Assembly: GCF_020510445.1 (NCBI RefSeq)
Contig: NZ_JAHBAG010000001.1
Span: 1,464,501 to 1,528,500, forward strand
DNA: 64,000 nucleotides
DNA from: Hydrogenophaga taeniospiralis
Lineage (GTDB): Bacteria > Pseudomonadota > Gammaproteobacteria > Burkholderiales > Burkholderiaceae_C
Reading direction: 5' to 3'
Below, piece by piece: positions 35,825-47,287 of the stretch. The first letter of the stretch is position 1. Each line of letters starts with the position of its first letter. The position numbers and the translations under genes are program-made. The notes below the pieces were generated by a model. That model saw only the letters and a list, made by a program, of their open reading frames with translations, had not been told where the DNA came from and ran no database searches.

Positions 35825-38800
35825 ATGCTGTTTTTCCTCTCTCTGCTGTTGACGGTCTGGGTCTCGCTGCGCTGGGCCTCGTGCTTCGCCCGTTCACCGG
35901 CCGACGGCTATTGGATCTTTGTCGCCAGCGTGATGCTGCAGGTCGGTGCGATCACCAGCCTGACTTCATTGGTTCACCAGTTGACCCCGTCGATGTGGGT
36001 GCTGGTTCAGGTGCTCGTTGGCGCCGTCACGGTGCTGTTGACGGGCGGTCCGCGCCGGCCAACGGGGATGGCGTGGAGCCGGTGGTATTCAAGACTCGCA
36101 GCGTTCGTGTCGGGGCTCTCGCTCTGGGGGGGCTTGGCGCTGAGTGCCATCTGCGGTATGTCGCTGGTGTCGATGGTGGTGCAGGTGGCGACCCCCCTTC
36201 AGGGTTACGACGAGAGGATGTACCACGCCTCACGGGTCATCTACTGGATTCAGCACCAGACGGTCTTTCCCTTTGACACGCACAACATCCGGCAAACGAT
36301 CGTTCCTTTCGGAAGTGAACTGTTCTTCTTGTGGCCGGTGCTGCTGACGAAAACCGAGGCAGTGGGCCGTCTGGTCTTCTGGTTGGCGCTCCCGTTGGCA
36401 TCGGTCGGCCAGTACGTTCTCTTGCGCACGCTGAAGCTGAGCCAGACGGTGGCCCTGGTCGGTGTGCTGATCCTGATCTCGACCCCTCTCATTGCGTCCA
36501 GTACGGTGGGACTCAAGCCGGAAATCTGGTCCATCGTTGCCTTGCTGGGGCTTGCCTATTGGGCCGTTTCCATTGGCGCGGGAGCTGAGGAGGCAAAGGC
36601 GAAATTTTTCTTTCTGGGGGTGTTCGCGGTCCTGAGCATCAACGTCAGGTCCTTTCCCCTGTCGCTGCTTCCCAGCCTGTTGCTGATCGTGTGGTGGGCG
36701 CCCGGTCCGTTTTCGTTCGCCACGCGGTTGAAACCTTTCGCTGCCGGTCTGGTGGGCGCGGGTCTTTTGAGTTCGCTGCTCATTCCACTGGCATTCAACA
36801 CCGCCCTCTACCACCACCCGCTGGGGCCGGGTGAGGTTCGGCGCATCATCCAGGCCGATGTCTCGCCAAGGGTGATGTACACGCACGCCGTCCGCTTTGC
36901 ATCCTTGCTGTGGGAGCTGCCCGACGTGCCTGCTTCGGCCGAAACGCGAAGCCACTTCAGTGGCGCCGCCAACCGATTCATCTCGGCCATGGGCGCTGGC
37001 GTGCCCTTGGCCGACGAAAACGATCGCCCCTGGCCCGGCCGGTTCGCGTATTCATTGCCGGAGCATTCCACCCGGTTTTCACTGTGGGGGCTGCTGTGGA
37101 TTCCCGTGCTGTTGACGGCGGTGCCACTCTTGATCCGCAACGTGTTGACCACCTGGCCCCGGGTGAGGCTGACGGCTGTTTCGGCACACGCGTTGCTGGC
37201 CATTCCATTGCTGGGAGCCATCCTCTTCGGCGCGCGGTGGATGGTCCAGTCCGAGGTGCCGGGGCGGTTTCTCGTGGGGCCCTATGCCTTGGCGTTGCCC
37301 ATGGGCATCGCACTGATCGCGCCGTACCTCTCCAGCAGGAGAAAGCTCGCGCAGCTGCTCATCGCGGGGGTGGTCGCGTATGGCGTGTACCAGCCTATCC
37401 GGGGGCGGGCTGACGCTGCCGTGCAGGCCATTGCCGTGCCTGTTTCGGAAAGGGTGGTCAACGAACCCTTTGACGAAGTGGTGGGGGCGCTCATGCCACC
37501 CGGCTCTCGTGTGCTTTTTGTGGGGCATCAGCACGCCCGCGACTATCCGCTCTTCCTGCCCGAGGCCCACTATGCCAACGCCGTGATCCCCTGGGGCACA
37601 GGGTCTTTCGATCCGGCAAGAATGCGCCGGTTGATCGCATCGGAACAAGTGAGCCACGTGCTGATCCAGGACGAAAAGCGGGTGGTGTTCAAGTGGTTTC
37701 CCGCCCTCGATACCCGCGAAATGGTGACGTGGCTGACCGCGCAAGCAGGGCTGAAGGCCGTCCATCTCAAGACACCCCACATGCGACTGTTTGAGGTGAG
37801 TGGCGCCGCGGCAATGGATGAGTGGCCGTTCAGTACCACGGAAGCCCCGCCCGCTGCGCCCTTGATCAAAGTCGACGACACCCTCAAAACCCAGGTGGGC
37901 ATCGATCCGACCCTGCTGGAGACAGCTTGGCCGGTCGAGAACCCAGGGGGCAGCGAGGGCGGATACCTGTGGATGGGGCAGGGGTCTGCCGAAGGCCTGG
38001 GGTTCGCGCTGTGGTCGCGGCAGGATCGCGACGTGGACTTCCGGTTCCAGGTGTCCCCCGGCCCCGGGCTGGACGCGCCCGGCAGGAGGGTCATGGTGCT
38101 CCACGACGGCATACCCGTTGGGGACGAGCACCGCTTCCAGGGCGAGGCGGCCATCGTGTTGCGCACCCGTCTCCATGCGGGGCGAAACCTCATCGACCTC
38201 TTTGCCGTGGATGCCGCCACGATCCGTCCGCTGCCCAATGGCGACCCCAGGGGCCTGGTGGTCGGTCTTCACGAGGTTCGCATCGAAGCGGTGCCCGTGG
38301 CCGCGGTGGACGACATTCGCCCCGATTCGCCGGGCCAGGTCGGCGAAAACGCCCGCAGCACTGGGAGCGATGACCTGGCCCGCAGCGCACGCCAGGCGGT
38401 GGGCCTGATCAACCGCCGGCAGCAGGCCGATGGCTATTGGCTCACCTCGCACACCAGCGAGGCGCAGTTTGACGAGCCGACGGAGGAAATGAACACCTAC
38501 GTCACGTCGATGATGGTCGACCTGCTGGGATCCAGGCGTGACCCCGTGGGGCTTGGCGGAGGCCTGGAGCGGGCCCGCACCCATCTGCGCAGCCAGATCG
38601 AAGCCGGCGGACTCGTTCGATACCACGGCCGGCCAGGCACCCGTGCCATGGCCGCGCACGGGCTGTGCACGATCACGCCCGATGCCGACGACACCGCACT
38701 GGTCTGGCGGATCGCCCCCGGTGCCGATGCGTTGCGATCGCCGGCCTTGGAGACGCTGCGGCGGTACCGCACGGCCGAAGGCCTGTACAAGACCTGGCTG

Positions 38801-39403
38801 GGGCAGCGGCGTGAGTACCAATGCATCGACCCCGGTGCCAACCCGAATCCCACCGACGTGGGCATCCAGATGCATGTGCTCATGTGGCTGGCCCAGGCCG
38901 ACCCACCGGCGGCCCGTGCGCTCTGCACGGCGCTTCGCCAAACCATCGACCAGGACCGCCTCTGGGTCTACTACGACAGGGCGCCGCTGGTGCCCGTCAT
39001 GCGCCAGGCCGACCTGAAAGCCGCGGGCTGCGAGGTGCCACTGCCGCCATCGCGTTCACAAACGACCGTGGAAGGACAGGCGATCTGGTTGGCTGCGAGC
39101 CAGATGCTGCAGCAGCTGGAGGGCGGCCGGGACCACGCGCCCACCTCGGCGCAGGTGGTCCATCTGCTGCAAGCACTGTCGAGGGATGGCTTTGCGCCGG
39201 TGAGGCAGAACCCGCCCTTGCTGTACCACAACGATCTCACGGCCTCGGTGCGCAGGTTCTATTGGTCGGAAGACGTGGGCCATGCCCTCTGGTTGAGGCT
39301 GTATCTGGACAGCGTGCGTCTCGGCCTTCTGGCGGCCCCCGACAACGACAGCGACAAAGACCGTGTCGCCGACGGTGGTCGAATCCTTCGGAAATCACCA
39401 TGA
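35825..39403 (+). CDS. GT-C glycosyltransferase-like membrane protein fused to a DxDDTA terpene-cyclase-like toroid
   Basis: A 1192-aa protein I cannot assign to a named gene. Residues about 1-540 contain some ten membrane helices and, after the third, Y-D-E-R-M-Y-H (128-134) with the A-S-R-V-I-Y-W-I-Q stretch seen in the first luminal loop of GT-C (PMT/ArnT-like) glycosyltransferases, whose acidic pair binds metal/lipid-phosphate sugar. Residues about 540-850 look like a soluble region, including a possible beta-sandwich. Residues about 855-1180 resemble an alpha/alpha toroid with Q-Q-A-D-G-Y-W (866-872), a QW-type motif, and D-A-D-D-T-A (953-958), identical in pattern to the DxDDTA acid motif of squalene-hopene and other class II terpene cyclases. 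The start ATG follows GAAGGG. Overlaps the UbiA gene. Confidence 0.75.
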   Translation: MLFFLSLLLTVWVSLRWASCFARSPADGYWIFVASVMLQVGAITSLTSLVHQLTPSMWVLVQVLVGAVTVLLTGGPRRPTGMAWSRWYSRLAAFVSGLSLWGGLALSAICGMSLVSMVVQVATPLQGYDERMYHASRVIYWIQHQTVFPFDTHNIRQTIVPFGSELFFLWPVLLTKTEAVGRLVFWLALPLASVGQYVLLRTLKLSQTVALVGVLILISTPLIASSTVGLKPEIWSIVALLGLAYWAVSIGAGAEEAKAKFFFLGVFAVLSINVRSFPLSLLPSLLLIVWWAPGPFSFATRLKPFAAGLVGAGLLSSLLIPLAFNTALYHHPLGPGEVRRIIQADVSPRVMYTHAVRFASLLWELPDVPASAETRSHFSGAANRFISAMGAGVPLADENDRPWPGRFAYSLPEHSTRFSLWGLLWIPVLLTAVPLLIRNVLTTWPRVRLTAVSAHALLAIPLLGAILFGARWMVQSEVPGRFLVGPYALALPMGIALIAPYLSSRRKLAQLLIAGVVAYGVYQPIRGRADAAVQAIAVPVSERVVNEPFDEVVGALMPPGSRVLFVGHQHARDYPLFLPEAHYANAVIPWGTGSFDPARMRRLIASEQVSHVLIQDEKRVVFKWFPALDTREMVTWLTAQAGLKAVHLKTPHMRLFEVSGAAAMDEWPFSTTEAPPAAPLIKVDDTLKTQVGIDPTLLETAWPVENPGGSEGGYLWMGQGSAEGLGFALWSRQDRDVDFRFQVSPGPGLDAPGRRVMVLHDGIPVGDEHRFQGEAAIVLRTRLHAGRNLIDLFAVDAATIRPLPNGDPRGLVVGLHEVRIEAVPVAAVDDIRPDSPGQVGENARSTGSDDLARSARQAVGLINRRQQADGYWLTSHTSEAQFDEPTEEMNTYVTSMMVDLLGSRRDPVGLGGGLERARTHLRSQIEAGGLVRYHGRPGTRAMAAHGLCTITPDADDTALVWRIAPGADALRSPALETLRRYRTAEGLYKTWLGQRREYQCIDPGANPNPTDVGIQMHVLMWLAQADPPAARALCTALRQTIDQDRLWVYYDRAPLVPVMRQADLKAAGCEVPLPPSRSQTTVEGQAIWLAASQMLQQLEGGRDHAPTSAQVVHLLQALSRDGFAPVRQNPPLLYHNDLTASVRRFYWSEDVGHALWLRLYLDSVRLGLLAAPDNDSDKDRVADGGRILRKSP

Positions 39404-40290
39404 CGGATCGTCCCAAAGGCGCCCGGTGGCTGCTGCGTCTGTTGTCGTGCATCCGGTTCGACGAGGTCCTGGTTCTTCAGGGCACGCCCCTGCTGGGCGC
39501 GGTGTTTGCGATGAACCACCTCACGATGCAGAGCGCCGCGGCGCTGTTGCTGCTGGCGGTGGGAAACGCCTTTCTGGTGGCCCACGTCTTTTTGCTCAAC
39601 GATTGGGCCGGCATCCACCAGGATCTCCGTGATCCCGCCCGATCGGCCGGCGTGTTCCTGAACCGCGGCGTTCGGCGCCAAGAGATCGCGGCTTTGCTGC
39701 TGATCCTGCTGCTGCTGAGCCTGGTGGCTTTCGGCCAGCTGGGTCCGGCGACGCTGGGCATCGGTCTGATGATCGCCGTCGCGAGTGCCCTCTACTCCGT
39801 CCCGCATGTGTACATGAAGGGTGTCCCGCTGGCCAGCTCACTGCTGCATCTGGTCAGTGGGGTGCTGCACTTCTTGCTGGGCTATTCGGTGTTTCAAAGT
39901 CCCGACGTCCATGGCTTGCAGATTGGGCTGTTCTTTGCCGTGATCTTCGGCGCGGGGCACCTGACACAGGAGGTTCGCGATTGCGAGGCCGACCAGGCCA
40001 ACGGCATTCAAACCAATGCCGTGACATTCGGCAAGAGGCGGAGCTTCATCGCCGGTTTCGTGCTCTTCACGTTCGCCGACGCCCTGTTGATCGTGCTGGC
40101 CATGGGCGGAGCCGTGCCGCAAGAGCTGGCCTTTTTCGTCGCCGCGCTCTACCCGTTGCATTTCCATTGGACGCTGCAGGCGATGCGTGAGGGCCTGCCG
40201 TTCGAGAGCGTGCGCCGGCTGCAGATACGGTACCGCGCCTTGTATGCGGGCATTGGCGCCGTCATGATCGTTTCCGTGCTTTTGACGTGA
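39400..40290 (+). CDS. UbiA-family prenyltransferase
   Basis: A 296-aa integral membrane protein with about eight helices and both Asp-rich regions of the UbiA superfamily: L-N-D-W-A-G-I-H-Q-D near residues 66-75 and R-D-C-E-A-D near 196-201. The first motif is N-D-x-x-G-x-x-x-D rather than N-D-x-x-D, so one metal-binding Asp is missing. Family members transfer prenyl chains to aromatic or other acceptors. The ATG overlaps the stop of the GT-C/toroid gene, which strongly suggests a joint function, perhaps making or modifying a prenyl-linked lipid. Not the housekeeping UbiA by sequence. Confidence 0.82.
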   Translation: MTDRPKGARWLLRLLSCIRFDEVLVLQGTPLLGAVFAMNHLTMQSAAALLLLAVGNAFLVAHVFLLNDWAGIHQDLRDPARSAGVFLNRGVRRQEIAALLLILLLLSLVAFGQLGPATLGIGLMIAVASALYSVPHVYMKGVPLASSLLHLVSGVLHFLLGYSVFQSPDVHGLQIGLFFAVIFGAGHLTQEVRDCEADQANGIQTNAVTFGKRRSFIAGFVLFTFADALLIVLAMGGAVPQELAFFVAALYPLHFHWTLQAMREGLPFESVRRLQIRYRALYAGIGAVMIVSVLLT

Positions 40291-44571: not shown

Positions 44572-44809
44572 GCTTGCAGGCGACGCTAGGCGTGCTCAAC
44601 GTCATCGATAGGGTGGGCCAGTCGGTGCGGCGGCCTGGGTTCACGCATGCGCAGAAGCCATAAGTTGTAGTTTCGGCATTGTGTAACAAGGCTGGCAGGA
44701 GGATACTGCGACTGTAAAAAAATGAAACGGTGTGCATCAGCGCCGCCCAGGTGAGGACCCGAGCTTTTTCCAGGTGGATGCCGACCCAACCGTACCGAGG
44801 AGACCGATC

Positions 44810-47287
44810 GTGCTTGAGATGAAGGCACTCCTGCTCGTGAAGGGCCTCGCCAAGAATGACAAACGAATGATCGAACGCCTGGCGCGTGGTACCGACGGCT
44901 TGTCCGGCCCGGGGGTGTCCAGACGTGGTGCGCGCGCGGCGGTTGCGGTCGTTTTGACGCCGGGCTTGTTGCTGTGGCCGCTGCCAGATGCCATGGCGAC
45001 CAGCGCCGTCCGGCTCGCATCGGCGGGGAGCCCGGCGATGGACGTGGCCGGCATGGACATCGGGGAGCTGGTCAACGTCAGGGTTTCACCCTTCGAGGTT
45101 TCCACGCATCTGGACCAAGGCTACCGGGCCTCGAATTCGGTGTCCGGTTCGCGTTTCGACGCGCCGATCCGGGACCTGCCGTTCGCCATCCAGGCGTTCA
45201 CCGAGTCCTTCATTCAGGACCAGAATCCGCAAAACCTCTTCGACATCGCGCGCTATTCGCCGGGCGTGACGTACCGCAGCAACGACTTCAACGAGGGCAA
45301 CGCCAACCTCGCCATCCGCGGCTTCGCCGTCAGTGCCACGCCCGGCAACGTTCAGGTGTTGCGCGACGGCTTCCACGGTCCTTCGATCTTCGACTTCACC
45401 AACATCTCGCGCGTGGAAGTGGTCAAGGGCCCATCCTCGTTTCTCTACGGGCAAGTGGCTCCCGGCGGCATCGTCAACGTCATCACCAAGACCCCGCAGC
45501 CGACGTTCGCCGCCACCGCCGATGCGCGCTACGGCTCCTATGGCCAGTACCGATTCGATGCCGACGTGACCGGGCCGGCGTCGAAAACGCTTTTCTACCG
45601 GATCGCGGCTTCCCACGACCAGGACATGCACTACTGGAAGCCCTACGACGCCCATTCCCGGAACATCTCGCCCTCCCTGCTCTGGCAGCCCAACGACCGC
45701 GTCAGTGTATCGGTCAAGTACGAGCACTTCCTCAAGGTCGAGAGTCCGCAGGTCATGCAGAAGCCCGGCTACAACACCCAGGCCGGCATCGTGCCGACCG
45801 CCTCCGACCCCAACCGTTCCGGCGTCGACGTGCCCGGCCTGCCGGACAACTGGAACAGCATGTCCAACGCGGACCATCGCCGCAGCGAAACCAACGGCCT
45901 GAGCACATGGATCGATGTCAAGGCCAACGATCACTGGAACCTGCGCGCGGGCTACGCCCGCCAGTCCTACGAGGTTGACGCGCTGTTCTCCGGCAACCTC
46001 GGCATGGCCAACAACGCCACCCTCATGCAGGGTCGCCGCGTCAGGTTCCAGACGTACACCAACCTCGACGACACCTACGAGGCCCAGGCCGTCGGCAAAT
46101 ACACCTTCGGCGACACCAGCCTGCGCCTGCTGGTCGGCACGCAGTACAGCCGCCGCCGTTTCGACAACCGGGCCGCGCAGGCGCCCAACGACCCGGCGCT
46201 CGGCAGCGATCCCACCGCGTCGCCGCTGCCGCTCTGGGACTTGAGCAACCCCGCCACCTGGAACCGCGATGGCGCGATTCCACTCTCCGCGCTGACGGCA
46301 AACGCGACCGACACGACCACCGACTATGTCGACAAGTCGGTCCATGGCGGTTCGACCTTCGGCTTCTTCGGCGACCGCTTGCTCGTGCTCGCGGGCTGGC
46401 GCAAGACCGCGACGGAAAGCCAGCTGGTCAACCACCTGACCGGTCTGTCCCAGGCCAAGATCACCGCCAGCGCGGTCACGCCCCAGTACGGCGTGCTGTA
46501 CAAGTTCACCCCCGGGCTCTCCGCATTCGCCTCCTACGCCGAGTCCTTCGTTCCCGGCACGCAAATCCTCCGCAACCCCGACGGAACGAGTCGAGCGGCC
46601 GAACCCACCCGGGGGCGCGGCCACGACATCGGTCTCAAGGCCGACCTGTTGGACGGCCGACTCTCCGGCACGCTCACGTTCTTCGACATCCGCAACAAGA
46701 ACATCGTCAACGATCTGGCCGTCACGGATGCACAAGGCAACGTGGCCATCTACAACGTGCAAAGCGGCGAACAGCGTTCGCGCGGTTTCGAGCTGGACAC
46801 GACGGCCGCGCTGACCGACAACTGGCAGCTGTATGTTTCCTACAGCCGCATGAACGCCCGCATCACCGAGTTCAGCGGCCACGACGCCGCCATCCTCGCC
46901 CAGGACCCGGCGACGCTCGACGCCTCCGGGCTGGCGAACTACAAGAACGTGCTGCGCTTCCACAACGCGCCCTTGCAGATGAGCGCGCCCCACCTCGCCA
47001 ACCTCTGGACGCGCTACAACTTCACACAGAGCGGACTGCAGGGGCTCTACGTCGTCGGCGGCGCCAACTTCGTGCGCGACCAGACCATCCTGCCCGACGG
47101 GCCGGCGTCGGCACGCCAGACCTACACGCTCGTCAACGCCGGCATCGGTTATGGGTGGCAATCCAACGGCCGGCGGATGAGCATTGATCTCATGGGCAAA
47201 AACCTCACCAACGAAAAGTACCGGCCTTCGCAGAGCACGCGCGGACGCCCTCGGGAGTTCCAGCTTACCTACGTGGCCAGGTTCTGA
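44810..47287 (+). CDS. TonB-dependent (siderophore-type) outer-membrane receptor
   Basis: An 825-aa receptor. After a long signal region (hydrophobic A-V-A-V-V-L-T-P-G-L-L-L-W-P-L) comes a plug domain with P-F-A-I-Q-A-F-T, I-R-G-F-A-V and the conserved V-E-V-V-K-G-P-S-S-F-L-Y-G-Q-V-A-P-G-G-I-V-N segment, then a 22-strand-type barrel ending in Phe (V-A-R-F). Start: GTG 44810 has GGAGA six bases upstream, better than ATG 44819 or the open upstream frame. The last codon overlaps the YfiR gene. No Fur box was found, so an iron ligand is not certain. Confidence 0.85.
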   Translation: MLEMKALLLVKGLAKNDKRMIERLARGTDGLSGPGVSRRGARAAVAVVLTPGLLLWPLPDAMATSAVRLASAGSPAMDVAGMDIGELVNVRVSPFEVSTHLDQGYRASNSVSGSRFDAPIRDLPFAIQAFTESFIQDQNPQNLFDIARYSPGVTYRSNDFNEGNANLAIRGFAVSATPGNVQVLRDGFHGPSIFDFTNISRVEVVKGPSSFLYGQVAPGGIVNVITKTPQPTFAATADARYGSYGQYRFDADVTGPASKTLFYRIAASHDQDMHYWKPYDAHSRNISPSLLWQPNDRVSVSVKYEHFLKVESPQVMQKPGYNTQAGIVPTASDPNRSGVDVPGLPDNWNSMSNADHRRSETNGLSTWIDVKANDHWNLRAGYARQSYEVDALFSGNLGMANNATLMQGRRVRFQTYTNLDDTYEAQAVGKYTFGDTSLRLLVGTQYSRRRFDNRAAQAPNDPALGSDPTASPLPLWDLSNPATWNRDGAIPLSALTANATDTTTDYVDKSVHGGSTFGFFGDRLLVLAGWRKTATESQLVNHLTGLSQAKITASAVTPQYGVLYKFTPGLSAFASYAESFVPGTQILRNPDGTSRAAEPTRGRGHDIGLKADLLDGRLSGTLTFFDIRNKNIVNDLAVTDAQGNVAIYNVQSGEQRSRGFELDTTAALTDNWQLYVSYSRMNARITEFSGHDAAILAQDPATLDASGLANYKNVLRFHNAPLQMSAPHLANLWTRYNFTQSGLQGLYVVGGANFVRDQTILPDGPASARQTYTLVNAGIGYGWQSNGRRMSIDLMGKNLTNEKYRPSQSTRGRPREFQLTYVARF

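Follow-up and report, generated by a model that had tools for sequence, protein, structure and literature searches.

We analysed a two-gene unit on the forward strand of Hydrogenophaga taeniospiralis (NCBI RefSeq assembly GCF_020510445.1, 5.28 Mb in 3 contigs), within a stretch of 64,000 nucleotides from contig NZ_JAHBAG010000001.1 (positions 1,464,501 to 1,528,500) that is referred to here as the window and whose numbering is used for its features. The first gene encodes a 1192-aa fusion protein in which a polytopic, putatively GT-C-like membrane part is followed by a beta-strand-rich domain and an all-helical, toroid-like domain. Directly after it comes a gene for a UbiA-family protein of 296 aa, and the two genes overlap by four bases, the ATGA at 39400-39403 (Table 1). 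A first-pass annotation, made from the DNA letters alone, had picked out an acidic loop motif, a QW-like turn and a DxDD acid motif in the fusion protein; all three lie exactly at the residues it gave, and the overlapping gene is indeed recognised by the Pfam UbiA model, with 72.2 bits against a cut-off of 34.2.

Table 1. Features of the two-gene unit, in window coordinates
Feature	Position	Strand	Basis
1192-aa fusion protein: polytopic GT-C-like membrane domain, beta-rich domain and all-helical toroid-like domain	35825-39403	+	Open reading frame (ORF); relatives L001-L004, G646, frame-broken G371
Polytopic membrane part, residues about 1-525, putatively GT-C-like	35825-37399	+	14 hydrophobic segments, four-sequence average
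YDERMYH, GT-C-like acidic loop motif, residues 128-134	36206-36226	+	Motif search, alignment
Beta-strand-rich domain, residues about 680-830, possibly carbohydrate-binding-like	37862-38314	+	Strands in a poor AlphaFold2 (AF2) model; putative function
Toroid-like helical domain, residues about 846-1170	38360-39334	+	Alignment; low-confidence model with helices only
QQADGYW, QW-like turn, residues 866-872	38420-38440	+	Motif search, alignment
DADDTA, candidate general-acid motif, residues 953-958	38681-38698	+	DxDD at 16/16 loci
Invariant Cys948	38666-38668	+	14/14 aligned copies
Invariant Cys1000	38822-38824	+	14/14 aligned copies
Invariant Cys1034	38924-38926	+	14/14 aligned copies
Invariant Cys1069	39029-39031	+	14/14 aligned copies
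UbiA-family membrane prenyltransferase, 296 aa	39400-40290	+	Pfam UbiA, E 5.2e-20; 16/16 loci
UbiA motif 1, NDWAGIHQDLRD	39598-39633	+	Alignment of UbiA relatives
UbiA motif 2, EVRDCEADQANGIQTNAVTFG	39970-40032	+	Alignment of UbiA relatives

The toroid and the UbiA gene are strictly paired. Sixteen distinct toroid loci were found, window included, and at every one a UbiA gene of the same subfamily lies directly downstream of the toroid gene on the same strand. A four-base overlap between toroid stop and UbiA start is likewise present at all 16 (start codon ATG in 12, GTG in 2 and TTG in 2), where the start was taken as the in-frame start nearest the toroid stop, a choice that favours overlap and leaves the true start uncertain where others exist. 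When 78 genomes of the family of G367 were searched, the subfamily UbiA (E <= 1e-20) occurred in the same 5 genomes as the toroid, and in a sample of 150 genomes it occurred (E <= 1e-30) in 4, all known toroid carriers. The neighbourhood search bears out the first-pass reading of the two genes as a unit and shows the pair to be conserved.

The N-terminal partner of the toroid is of two types. Full-length relatives of the window protein (type A, about 60-71% identity) occur in Acidovorax radicis, a Comamonadaceae metagenome-assembled genome (MAG), two H. pseudoflava strains and G371, the set comprising L001-L004, G646 (on the same contig as L004) and the frame-broken copy in G371. In type B the toroid alone is shared, at 46-53% identity, and the polytopic N-terminus has no blastp similarity to type A (E <= 1e-3); its carriers are an Acetobacteraceae MAG (L005), G367, G581, G386, G726, G453, G1333, G1282, G1284 and G1318. 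Because the N-terminal membrane domain is exchanged while the toroid and UbiA stay together, we infer that these two form the functional core, with the GT-like membrane part as the exchangeable half. The full-length homologue in G371 (L018, 9124-12692) has a frame break that divides it inside the toroid, with its UbiA and GT2 genes remaining, and is a decaying gene or an assembly error.

The distribution of the toroid is sparse. It was found in 7/399 genomes of the window's own family, in 1/200 sampled from the order, this one being the window genome, in 3/369 of a class sample, one of them a discarded weak match, in 4/349 of a phylum sample, two of them weak, and in 5 of the 78 genomes of the family of G367; the class-sample and window-family searches scored the two best first-look candidates per genome, with misses possible. 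Two weak matches were dropped, G852 as a reading frame with stops and G246 as a membrane region in a frame with stops.

Within the toroid, conservation centres on the acid motif and a set of polar and aromatic residues. QQADGYW and DADDTA each occur once in the 1192-aa protein, and D.DD is found nowhere else in it. Across 14 aligned toroids, about 44-76% identical to the window copy, Q866, G870 and W872 are invariant, and DxDD is kept at all 16 loci, as DxDDTA in 15 and as DADDTS in the frame-broken G371 copy. Free variation of DxDD, which the first-pass annotation had named beforehand as speaking against its own reading, is not seen. The 79 positions invariant among the 14 include D953, D955, D956, T957, A958, R932, H934 and H1017, together with H1135-N1136-D1137, R1144, Y1146-W1147-S1148 and seven Trp; Trp and Cys are enriched at these positions, to 8.9% against 2.4% and to 5.1% against 1.2%. 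By eye, the domain resolves into five or six units of the form helix - [Q]xxGx[W/Y] - helix; in the second of these the inner helix starts with DxDD. Squalene-hopene cyclase (SHC) has a comparable placement of DxDD at the start of an inner helix. A proposed equivalence of invariant H1017 with H451 of SHC was dropped, the consensus of six SHCs having Arg there.

The four invariant cysteines (Table 1) are the only ones in the domain: exactly four Cys lie within the matched toroid stretch at 15/16 loci, and the frame-broken G371 copy has one in its short matched stretch and three more in another reading frame. Elsewhere in the window protein there are just two, at positions 20 and 110, in or beside hydrophobic segments. 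Four conserved Cys without spares suggest the pattern of disulfide-bonded extracytoplasmic domains. A stand-alone relative of 291 aa (L036, in G1059) keeps PDADDTALAW and GVYRTWL and aligns to the toroid with an hhalign probability of 96%; at the aligned positions the four Cys are missing, as is much of the C-terminal part. The gene (L036 9213-10088) shares four bases at its start with the stop of a gene for a 329-aa protein (L025 2085-3074), and one for a 1197-aa protein comes after it in G1059; neither of these neighbours could be assigned to a family. The stand-alone relative L025, sought in 80 genomes of its own family, is present in its own genome alone.

The UbiA partner carries two motifs, NDW[AS][GE]xxxDxxDPxR and ExR[DG]xxxDxxNxIxTNAVxFG, which are kept in 16 aligned rows representing 15 distinct loci (G367 is entered twice and L004 left out). 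The first keeps the N, D and ninth-position D of the canonical NDxxDxxxD, and its N67, D68, D75 and D78 are invariant in the 11/11 members of alignment A5, in which the core residues of both motifs are kept. Against solved structures the UbiA profile matches digeranylgeranylglyceryl phosphate synthase (DGGGPS, 1.1e-5) and the prenyltransferase 4tq3 (1.7e-5), and decaprenyl-phosphate phosphoribosyltransferase (DPPRS) is not among the five matches listed. The best NCBIfam prenyltransferase model matches 11/11 members (best 7.1e-15), while the NCBIfam DPPRS model matches 2/11 (best 7.7e-4). By these profiles the partner is closer to prenyltransferases than to the phosphoribosyltransferase branch, in agreement with the prenyl-transferring role first assigned to it. 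Membership of the PPPRS/DPPRS group was rejected on these structure and family-model matches and on G or E at the position equivalent to D251 of PPPRS. Identity with the genome's quinone or heme enzyme was also rejected: the source genome holds four other UbiA-family genes, against which the partner has one blastp match, at E 1.9 (E <= 10). The model for EboC, a UbiA-like protein of the ebo cluster, matches 4/11 members of alignment A5 (best 1.8e-5).

The assignment of the membrane part to the GT-C type is more tentative. YDERMYH occurs once in the protein, its D129 and M132-Y133-H134 are invariant in 4/4 aligned sequences (window included), and in the type A alignment D[ED][RK]MYH sits after a hydrophobic segment. 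Averaged over the four type A sequences, the hydrophobic map has 14 segments in a 4 + 6 + 4 layout, with the DERMYH loop, a long 324-417 loop and the C-terminus sharing the side opposite the K/R-rich short loops. Such a layout would be as in GT-C enzymes, with the reservation that the predictor is crude, with one threshold set once (type A n=4, type B n=7), and that the type B map disagrees. The acidic early-loop motif and the type A layout thus agree with the first-pass reading, and family and structure searches do not: the 1192-aa protein has no GT-C family match in Pfam or NCBIfam at E <= 1, the membrane part has no sequence match in the PDB at E <= 10, and three type B N-termini have no Pfam match at E <= 0.1. 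The whole protein gives one PHROG match of unknown function (E 0.1) and two PDB matches (E 0.24 and 0.82) that we judged meaningless. An AF2 model of the N-terminal 837 aa from a 4-sequence alignment has a mean predicted local distance difference test (pLDDT) score of 37 and a predicted template modelling (pTM) score of 0.26; within this otherwise poor model, residues 731-800 form strands in 10-residue blocks mostly at pLDDT 65-80.

The toroid probably lies outside the cytoplasm, judging from the invariant cysteines and from the hydrophobic-segment map of type A, to which the window protein belongs. The map supports this location in type A but not in type B.

A third gene accompanies the pair at many loci. 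At 9/16 loci (L001, L005, L016, L018, L019 and L032-L035) the gene immediately after UbiA, in the same orientation, encodes a GT2 enzyme, and L002 has a GT2 gene nearby on the opposite strand. No GT2 gene was found at 1e-4 at the window, L003, L004, L020 or L021 loci, and L022 gives a weak match alone, to a different GT2 gene. In the four that were scanned (L001, L016, L018, L034) the best NCBIfam model is AglJ, followed by PgaC/IcaA, PpgS and an ArnC-type undecaprenyl-phosphate transferase, all below their curated cut-offs. By these similarities, the GT2 protein is likely a polyprenyl-phosphate-sugar synthase, supplying the donor type used by GT-C enzymes. Several toroid loci appear by eye to lie within surface-polysaccharide neighbourhoods, and Pfam glycosyltransferases are present in L019, L022 and L035. 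Very long ORFs of 1288-1660 aa lie near the toroid in L016, L033, L034 and L035 and are probably multi-domain glycan-building proteins; the one scanned, in L035, matches Pfam glycosyltransferase group 1, and those of L034 and L035 begin, by eye, near a GMHRSGTS sulfotransferase-like motif.

We propose that the pair is the fixed core of an accessory envelope pathway that combines prenylation by UbiA, cyclisation by the toroid and glycosylation by the GT-C-like domain, a reading to which we assign a probability of roughly 0.4. In this scheme, for which we infer the fold, the location, every reaction and all substrates, UbiA would, as its family implies, join an isoprenoid chain from a prenyl diphosphate to a membrane acceptor. 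The toroid would be a single alpha/alpha barrel outside the cytoplasm, anchored there through the membrane protein and braced by two disulfides, where the middle Asp of D953-A-D955-D956 would protonate the terminal double bond of UbiA's isoprenoid product and the product would be cyclised in the manner of monodomain class II cyclases. The attached GT-C-like domain, with the beta-rich module, would glycosylate either that product or a surface glycan nearby, drawing on a polyprenyl-phosphate-linked sugar that the adjacent GT2 protein supplies in many relatives. We regard a more specific version as doubtful, in which an extracytoplasmic class II-type cyclase, stabilised by two disulfides and covalently joined to a GT-C-like glycosyltransferase that can be exchanged, acts on what a dedicated UbiA produces and so makes a cyclised, glycosylated isoprenoid envelope lipid.

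The case for the cyclase step comes from the invariance of DxDD, from a layout resembling helical repeats and from UbiA as the partner; homology to cyclases is not demonstrated, and several results weigh against the step. SQHop, Prenyltrans and other terpene-cyclase Pfam models match 0/14 toroids at E <= 1. Sequence searches were made with phmmer and hmmsearch against the PDB and with hhalign against six proteobacterial SHCs and two proteins resembling copalyl diphosphate synthases (CPS). In the PDB search an isochorismatase came first (E 0.63) and SHC third of three (E 1.1); with a wider alignment the isochorismatase stayed first (E 0.028) and SHC was gone. This isochorismatase, of unrelated fold, carries the motif-like string TPDADDTVLVKW by chance, so the motif alone proves little. 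We also aligned profiles anchored on DxDD, excluding the motif from the score and comparing with 150 column shuffles. Downstream of DxDD the score was reached by 35/150 shuffles for SHC and 26/150 for CPS, and upstream by 67/150 and 104/150, so that, once DxDD is set aside, the toroid does not resemble SHC or CPS above the level of shuffles; the relation to squalene-hopene cyclase drawn in the first-pass annotation gains no support beyond the motif itself. Comparisons with hhalign gave the toroid a probability of 3% to SHC (P 0.0045, with a QW repeat rather than DxDD in register) and 0.4% to CPS (P 0.17). L036 gave 3.2% to SHC (P 0.014, off DxDD) and 1.7% to CPS (P 0.029, registered on DxDD). 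A wider CPS search of 142 genomes found, besides the query genome, seven weak matches (E 1e-4 to 8e-4).

From a 5-sequence alignment AF2 gave the toroid 12 helices and no strand of at least 3 residues, a low-confidence point in favour of the proposal; with a mean pLDDT of 46 and a pTM of 0.51 the model is too poor to place D955 in a cavity. The poor models of the toroid and the N-terminus probably reflect shallow alignments. Of the 28 Foldseek matches to the toroid model at E <= 10, none reached E <= 0.001, and the alpha/alpha toroid C3d at rank 9 was not taken as evidence. The invariant set is also polar-rich, with six Asp, four Arg, three His and one invariant Phe, a composition no less suited to a sugar or phosphate ligand. 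On the UbiA side, the fifth-position Asp of NDxxDxxxD is replaced by G or E in all 16 rows. UbiA active sites generally face the cytoplasm, and the product would therefore have to cross the membrane to reach the toroid. The topology carries its own contrary signs: single-sequence segment counts are inconsistent (12, 10, 12 and 10 in type A; 9, 9 and 8 in type B), an even count in type A, where the N-terminus shares the side of the K/R-rich loops, would place the toroid inside, and so would the type B average of 10 segments, with its C-terminus opposite the large first loop. Finally, no terpenoid gene was recognised beside the pair, where most neighbours lay outside the scan.

The window genome has no SQHop_cyclase_C match. 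A C-terminal helical domain in L043-L045 matches SQHop_cyclase_C weakly and represents another unannotated toroid-like fusion, with a methyltransferase-like N-terminus, by eye, in two of the three. Two genomes of the phylum sample carry CPS-like class II cyclases with DADDTAV (L046 1222-2895 and L047 1258-3054), the first matching an ent-CPS structure at 1.1e-35.

Known enzymes offer partial precedents for the proposed core. SHC and the copalyl diphosphate synthases have a PDxDDTA[VL]-type acid motif and QW-like turns like those of the toroid, whereas they have two toroids (beta and gamma) and the present protein has one. Cyanobacterial merosterol synthesis, as described, combines a UbiA-like prenyltransferase with an SHC-like cyclase (PMC5618424), and this cyclase, the merosterolic acid synthase MstE, is described as the first monodomain class II cyclase (PMC9401909). 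Unlike MstE, the toroid studied here forms part of a polytopic membrane protein and has four invariant Cys, and it has no detected sequence relation to cyclases, a comparison that did not include MstE itself; no oxidative tailoring genes were recognised at the present loci, whose neighbours were not scanned for them. Lone class II beta domains are also described fused C-terminally to a HAD-like phosphatase domain, in AsDMS and AstC (PMC9128629, PMC13244436). These resemble the proposed arrangement of the window protein, a lone domain joined to an unrelated enzyme domain; AstC has an alpha6-alpha6 barrel, and the middle Asp of the acid motif is reported as essential in AsDMS. They differ in the phosphatase partner and in a motif of the DxDTT or DxDT type. 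The precedent of MstE and of the fused single beta domains answers the worry, raised at first pass, that the toroid is half of a full cyclase. Overall, the earlier interpretation is partly supported.

The main alternative, which we hold possible, at well short of even odds, is that the unit serves extracytoplasmic glycosylation. The GT-C-like domain would pass a sugar carried on a polyprenyl phosphate to a surface glycan bound by the beta-rich domain, the toroid would be a carbohydrate-active or glycan-binding alpha/alpha barrel (of hydrolase, lyase or epimerase type) whose DxDD acts on sugar, and UbiA would make or modify the lipid donor, for example as a phosphoribosyltransferase. A known anatomy of this kind is that of the three-component pentofuranose systems of Citrobacter youngae, described as a GT136 GT-C enzyme, a MATE flippase and PPPRS, in which a GT-C enzyme with a C-terminal beta-rich module likewise has a UbiA-family partner (PMC11127046). 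The analogy is weakened because the UbiA member there is a phosphoribosyltransferase depending on D251, the D251A variant of the PPPRS ORF15 having no activity in vitro and a severely reduced signal in vivo (PMC11127046), whereas all 16 rows (15 loci) have G or E at the equivalent position here; the described system also has no toroid, and the present UbiA prefers prenyltransferase models. GtrABC O-antigen glucosylation offers a polyprenyl-phosphate-sugar synthase beside a GT-C enzyme and an exchangeable specificity part, with UbiA and toroid outside the system as described (PMC11127046).

This glycan-directed alternative gains from the several toroid loci that adjoin surface-polysaccharide genes and from the GT2 genes, similar to polyprenyl-phosphate-sugar synthases, at 9/16 loci, and a GT-C part swapped around a fixed core would fit diversification of acceptors. 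Yet where a locus has its own GT2 gene a second donor synthase would be superfluous, and the UbiA profile favours prenyltransferases (11/11 against 2/11 for the DPPRS type) and finds DGGGPS and 4tq3 among solved structures. DxDDTA is, to our knowledge, not a motif of carbohydrate toroids, which we also count against it.

We consider it unlikely that the toroid serves without catalysis, as a binding or scaffold domain whose DxDD has a structural role such as capping an inner helix, the two genes then coupling a glycosyltransferase with a prenyltransferase. The chance origin of the isochorismatase string and the lack of detectable homology to any enzyme family speak for such a role, but 79 invariant positions at 44-76% identity, six Asp, three His and four Arg among them, exceed the usual level of a scaffold, and the strict pairing with UbiA also argues against it. 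Least probable of all is a toroid that presents a prenyl chain outside the cytoplasm to the GT-C domain without cyclising it, after UbiA has prenylated a polyprenyl-phosphate or glycan acceptor: the strict pairing and the fusion to a membrane glycosyltransferase-like domain would suit it, but it leaves unexplained why the acid motif DxDD is conserved rather than a greasy pocket.

The wider setting of the pair comprises an AMP-binding ligase and a branched-chain-type ABC transporter group on one side and a Crp-type regulator on the other, and these flanks recur around the pair in Hydrogenophaga pseudoflava. A TonB-dependent receptor is encoded at 44732-47287, downstream of the Crp-type regulator region, with no link to the pair seen. 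A plasmid or viral origin of the pair was considered and set aside, no match being found among the plasmids or viral contigs searched, a search that did not take in the phage collection. Full-text literature searches, whose coverage excluded most subscription papers, returned no title or abstract start describing a toroid fusion paired with UbiA.

Were the proposed cyclising pathway correct, the toroid would represent an unrecognised protein domain family (at E <= 1 neither Pfam nor NCBIfam matches the window protein) within a strictly conserved pair. It would link isoprenoid and glycan chemistry at the bacterial envelope and place terpene cyclisation outside the cytoplasm, pointing to an unknown glycolipid or meroterpenoid. 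Were the glycan-directed alternative true, a new module would be added to extracytoplasmic glycosylation systems. The pair is small and is found in cultured environmental species such as H. pseudoflava, and in some soil and water bacteria it may build an undescribed sugar-linked terpenoid lipid.

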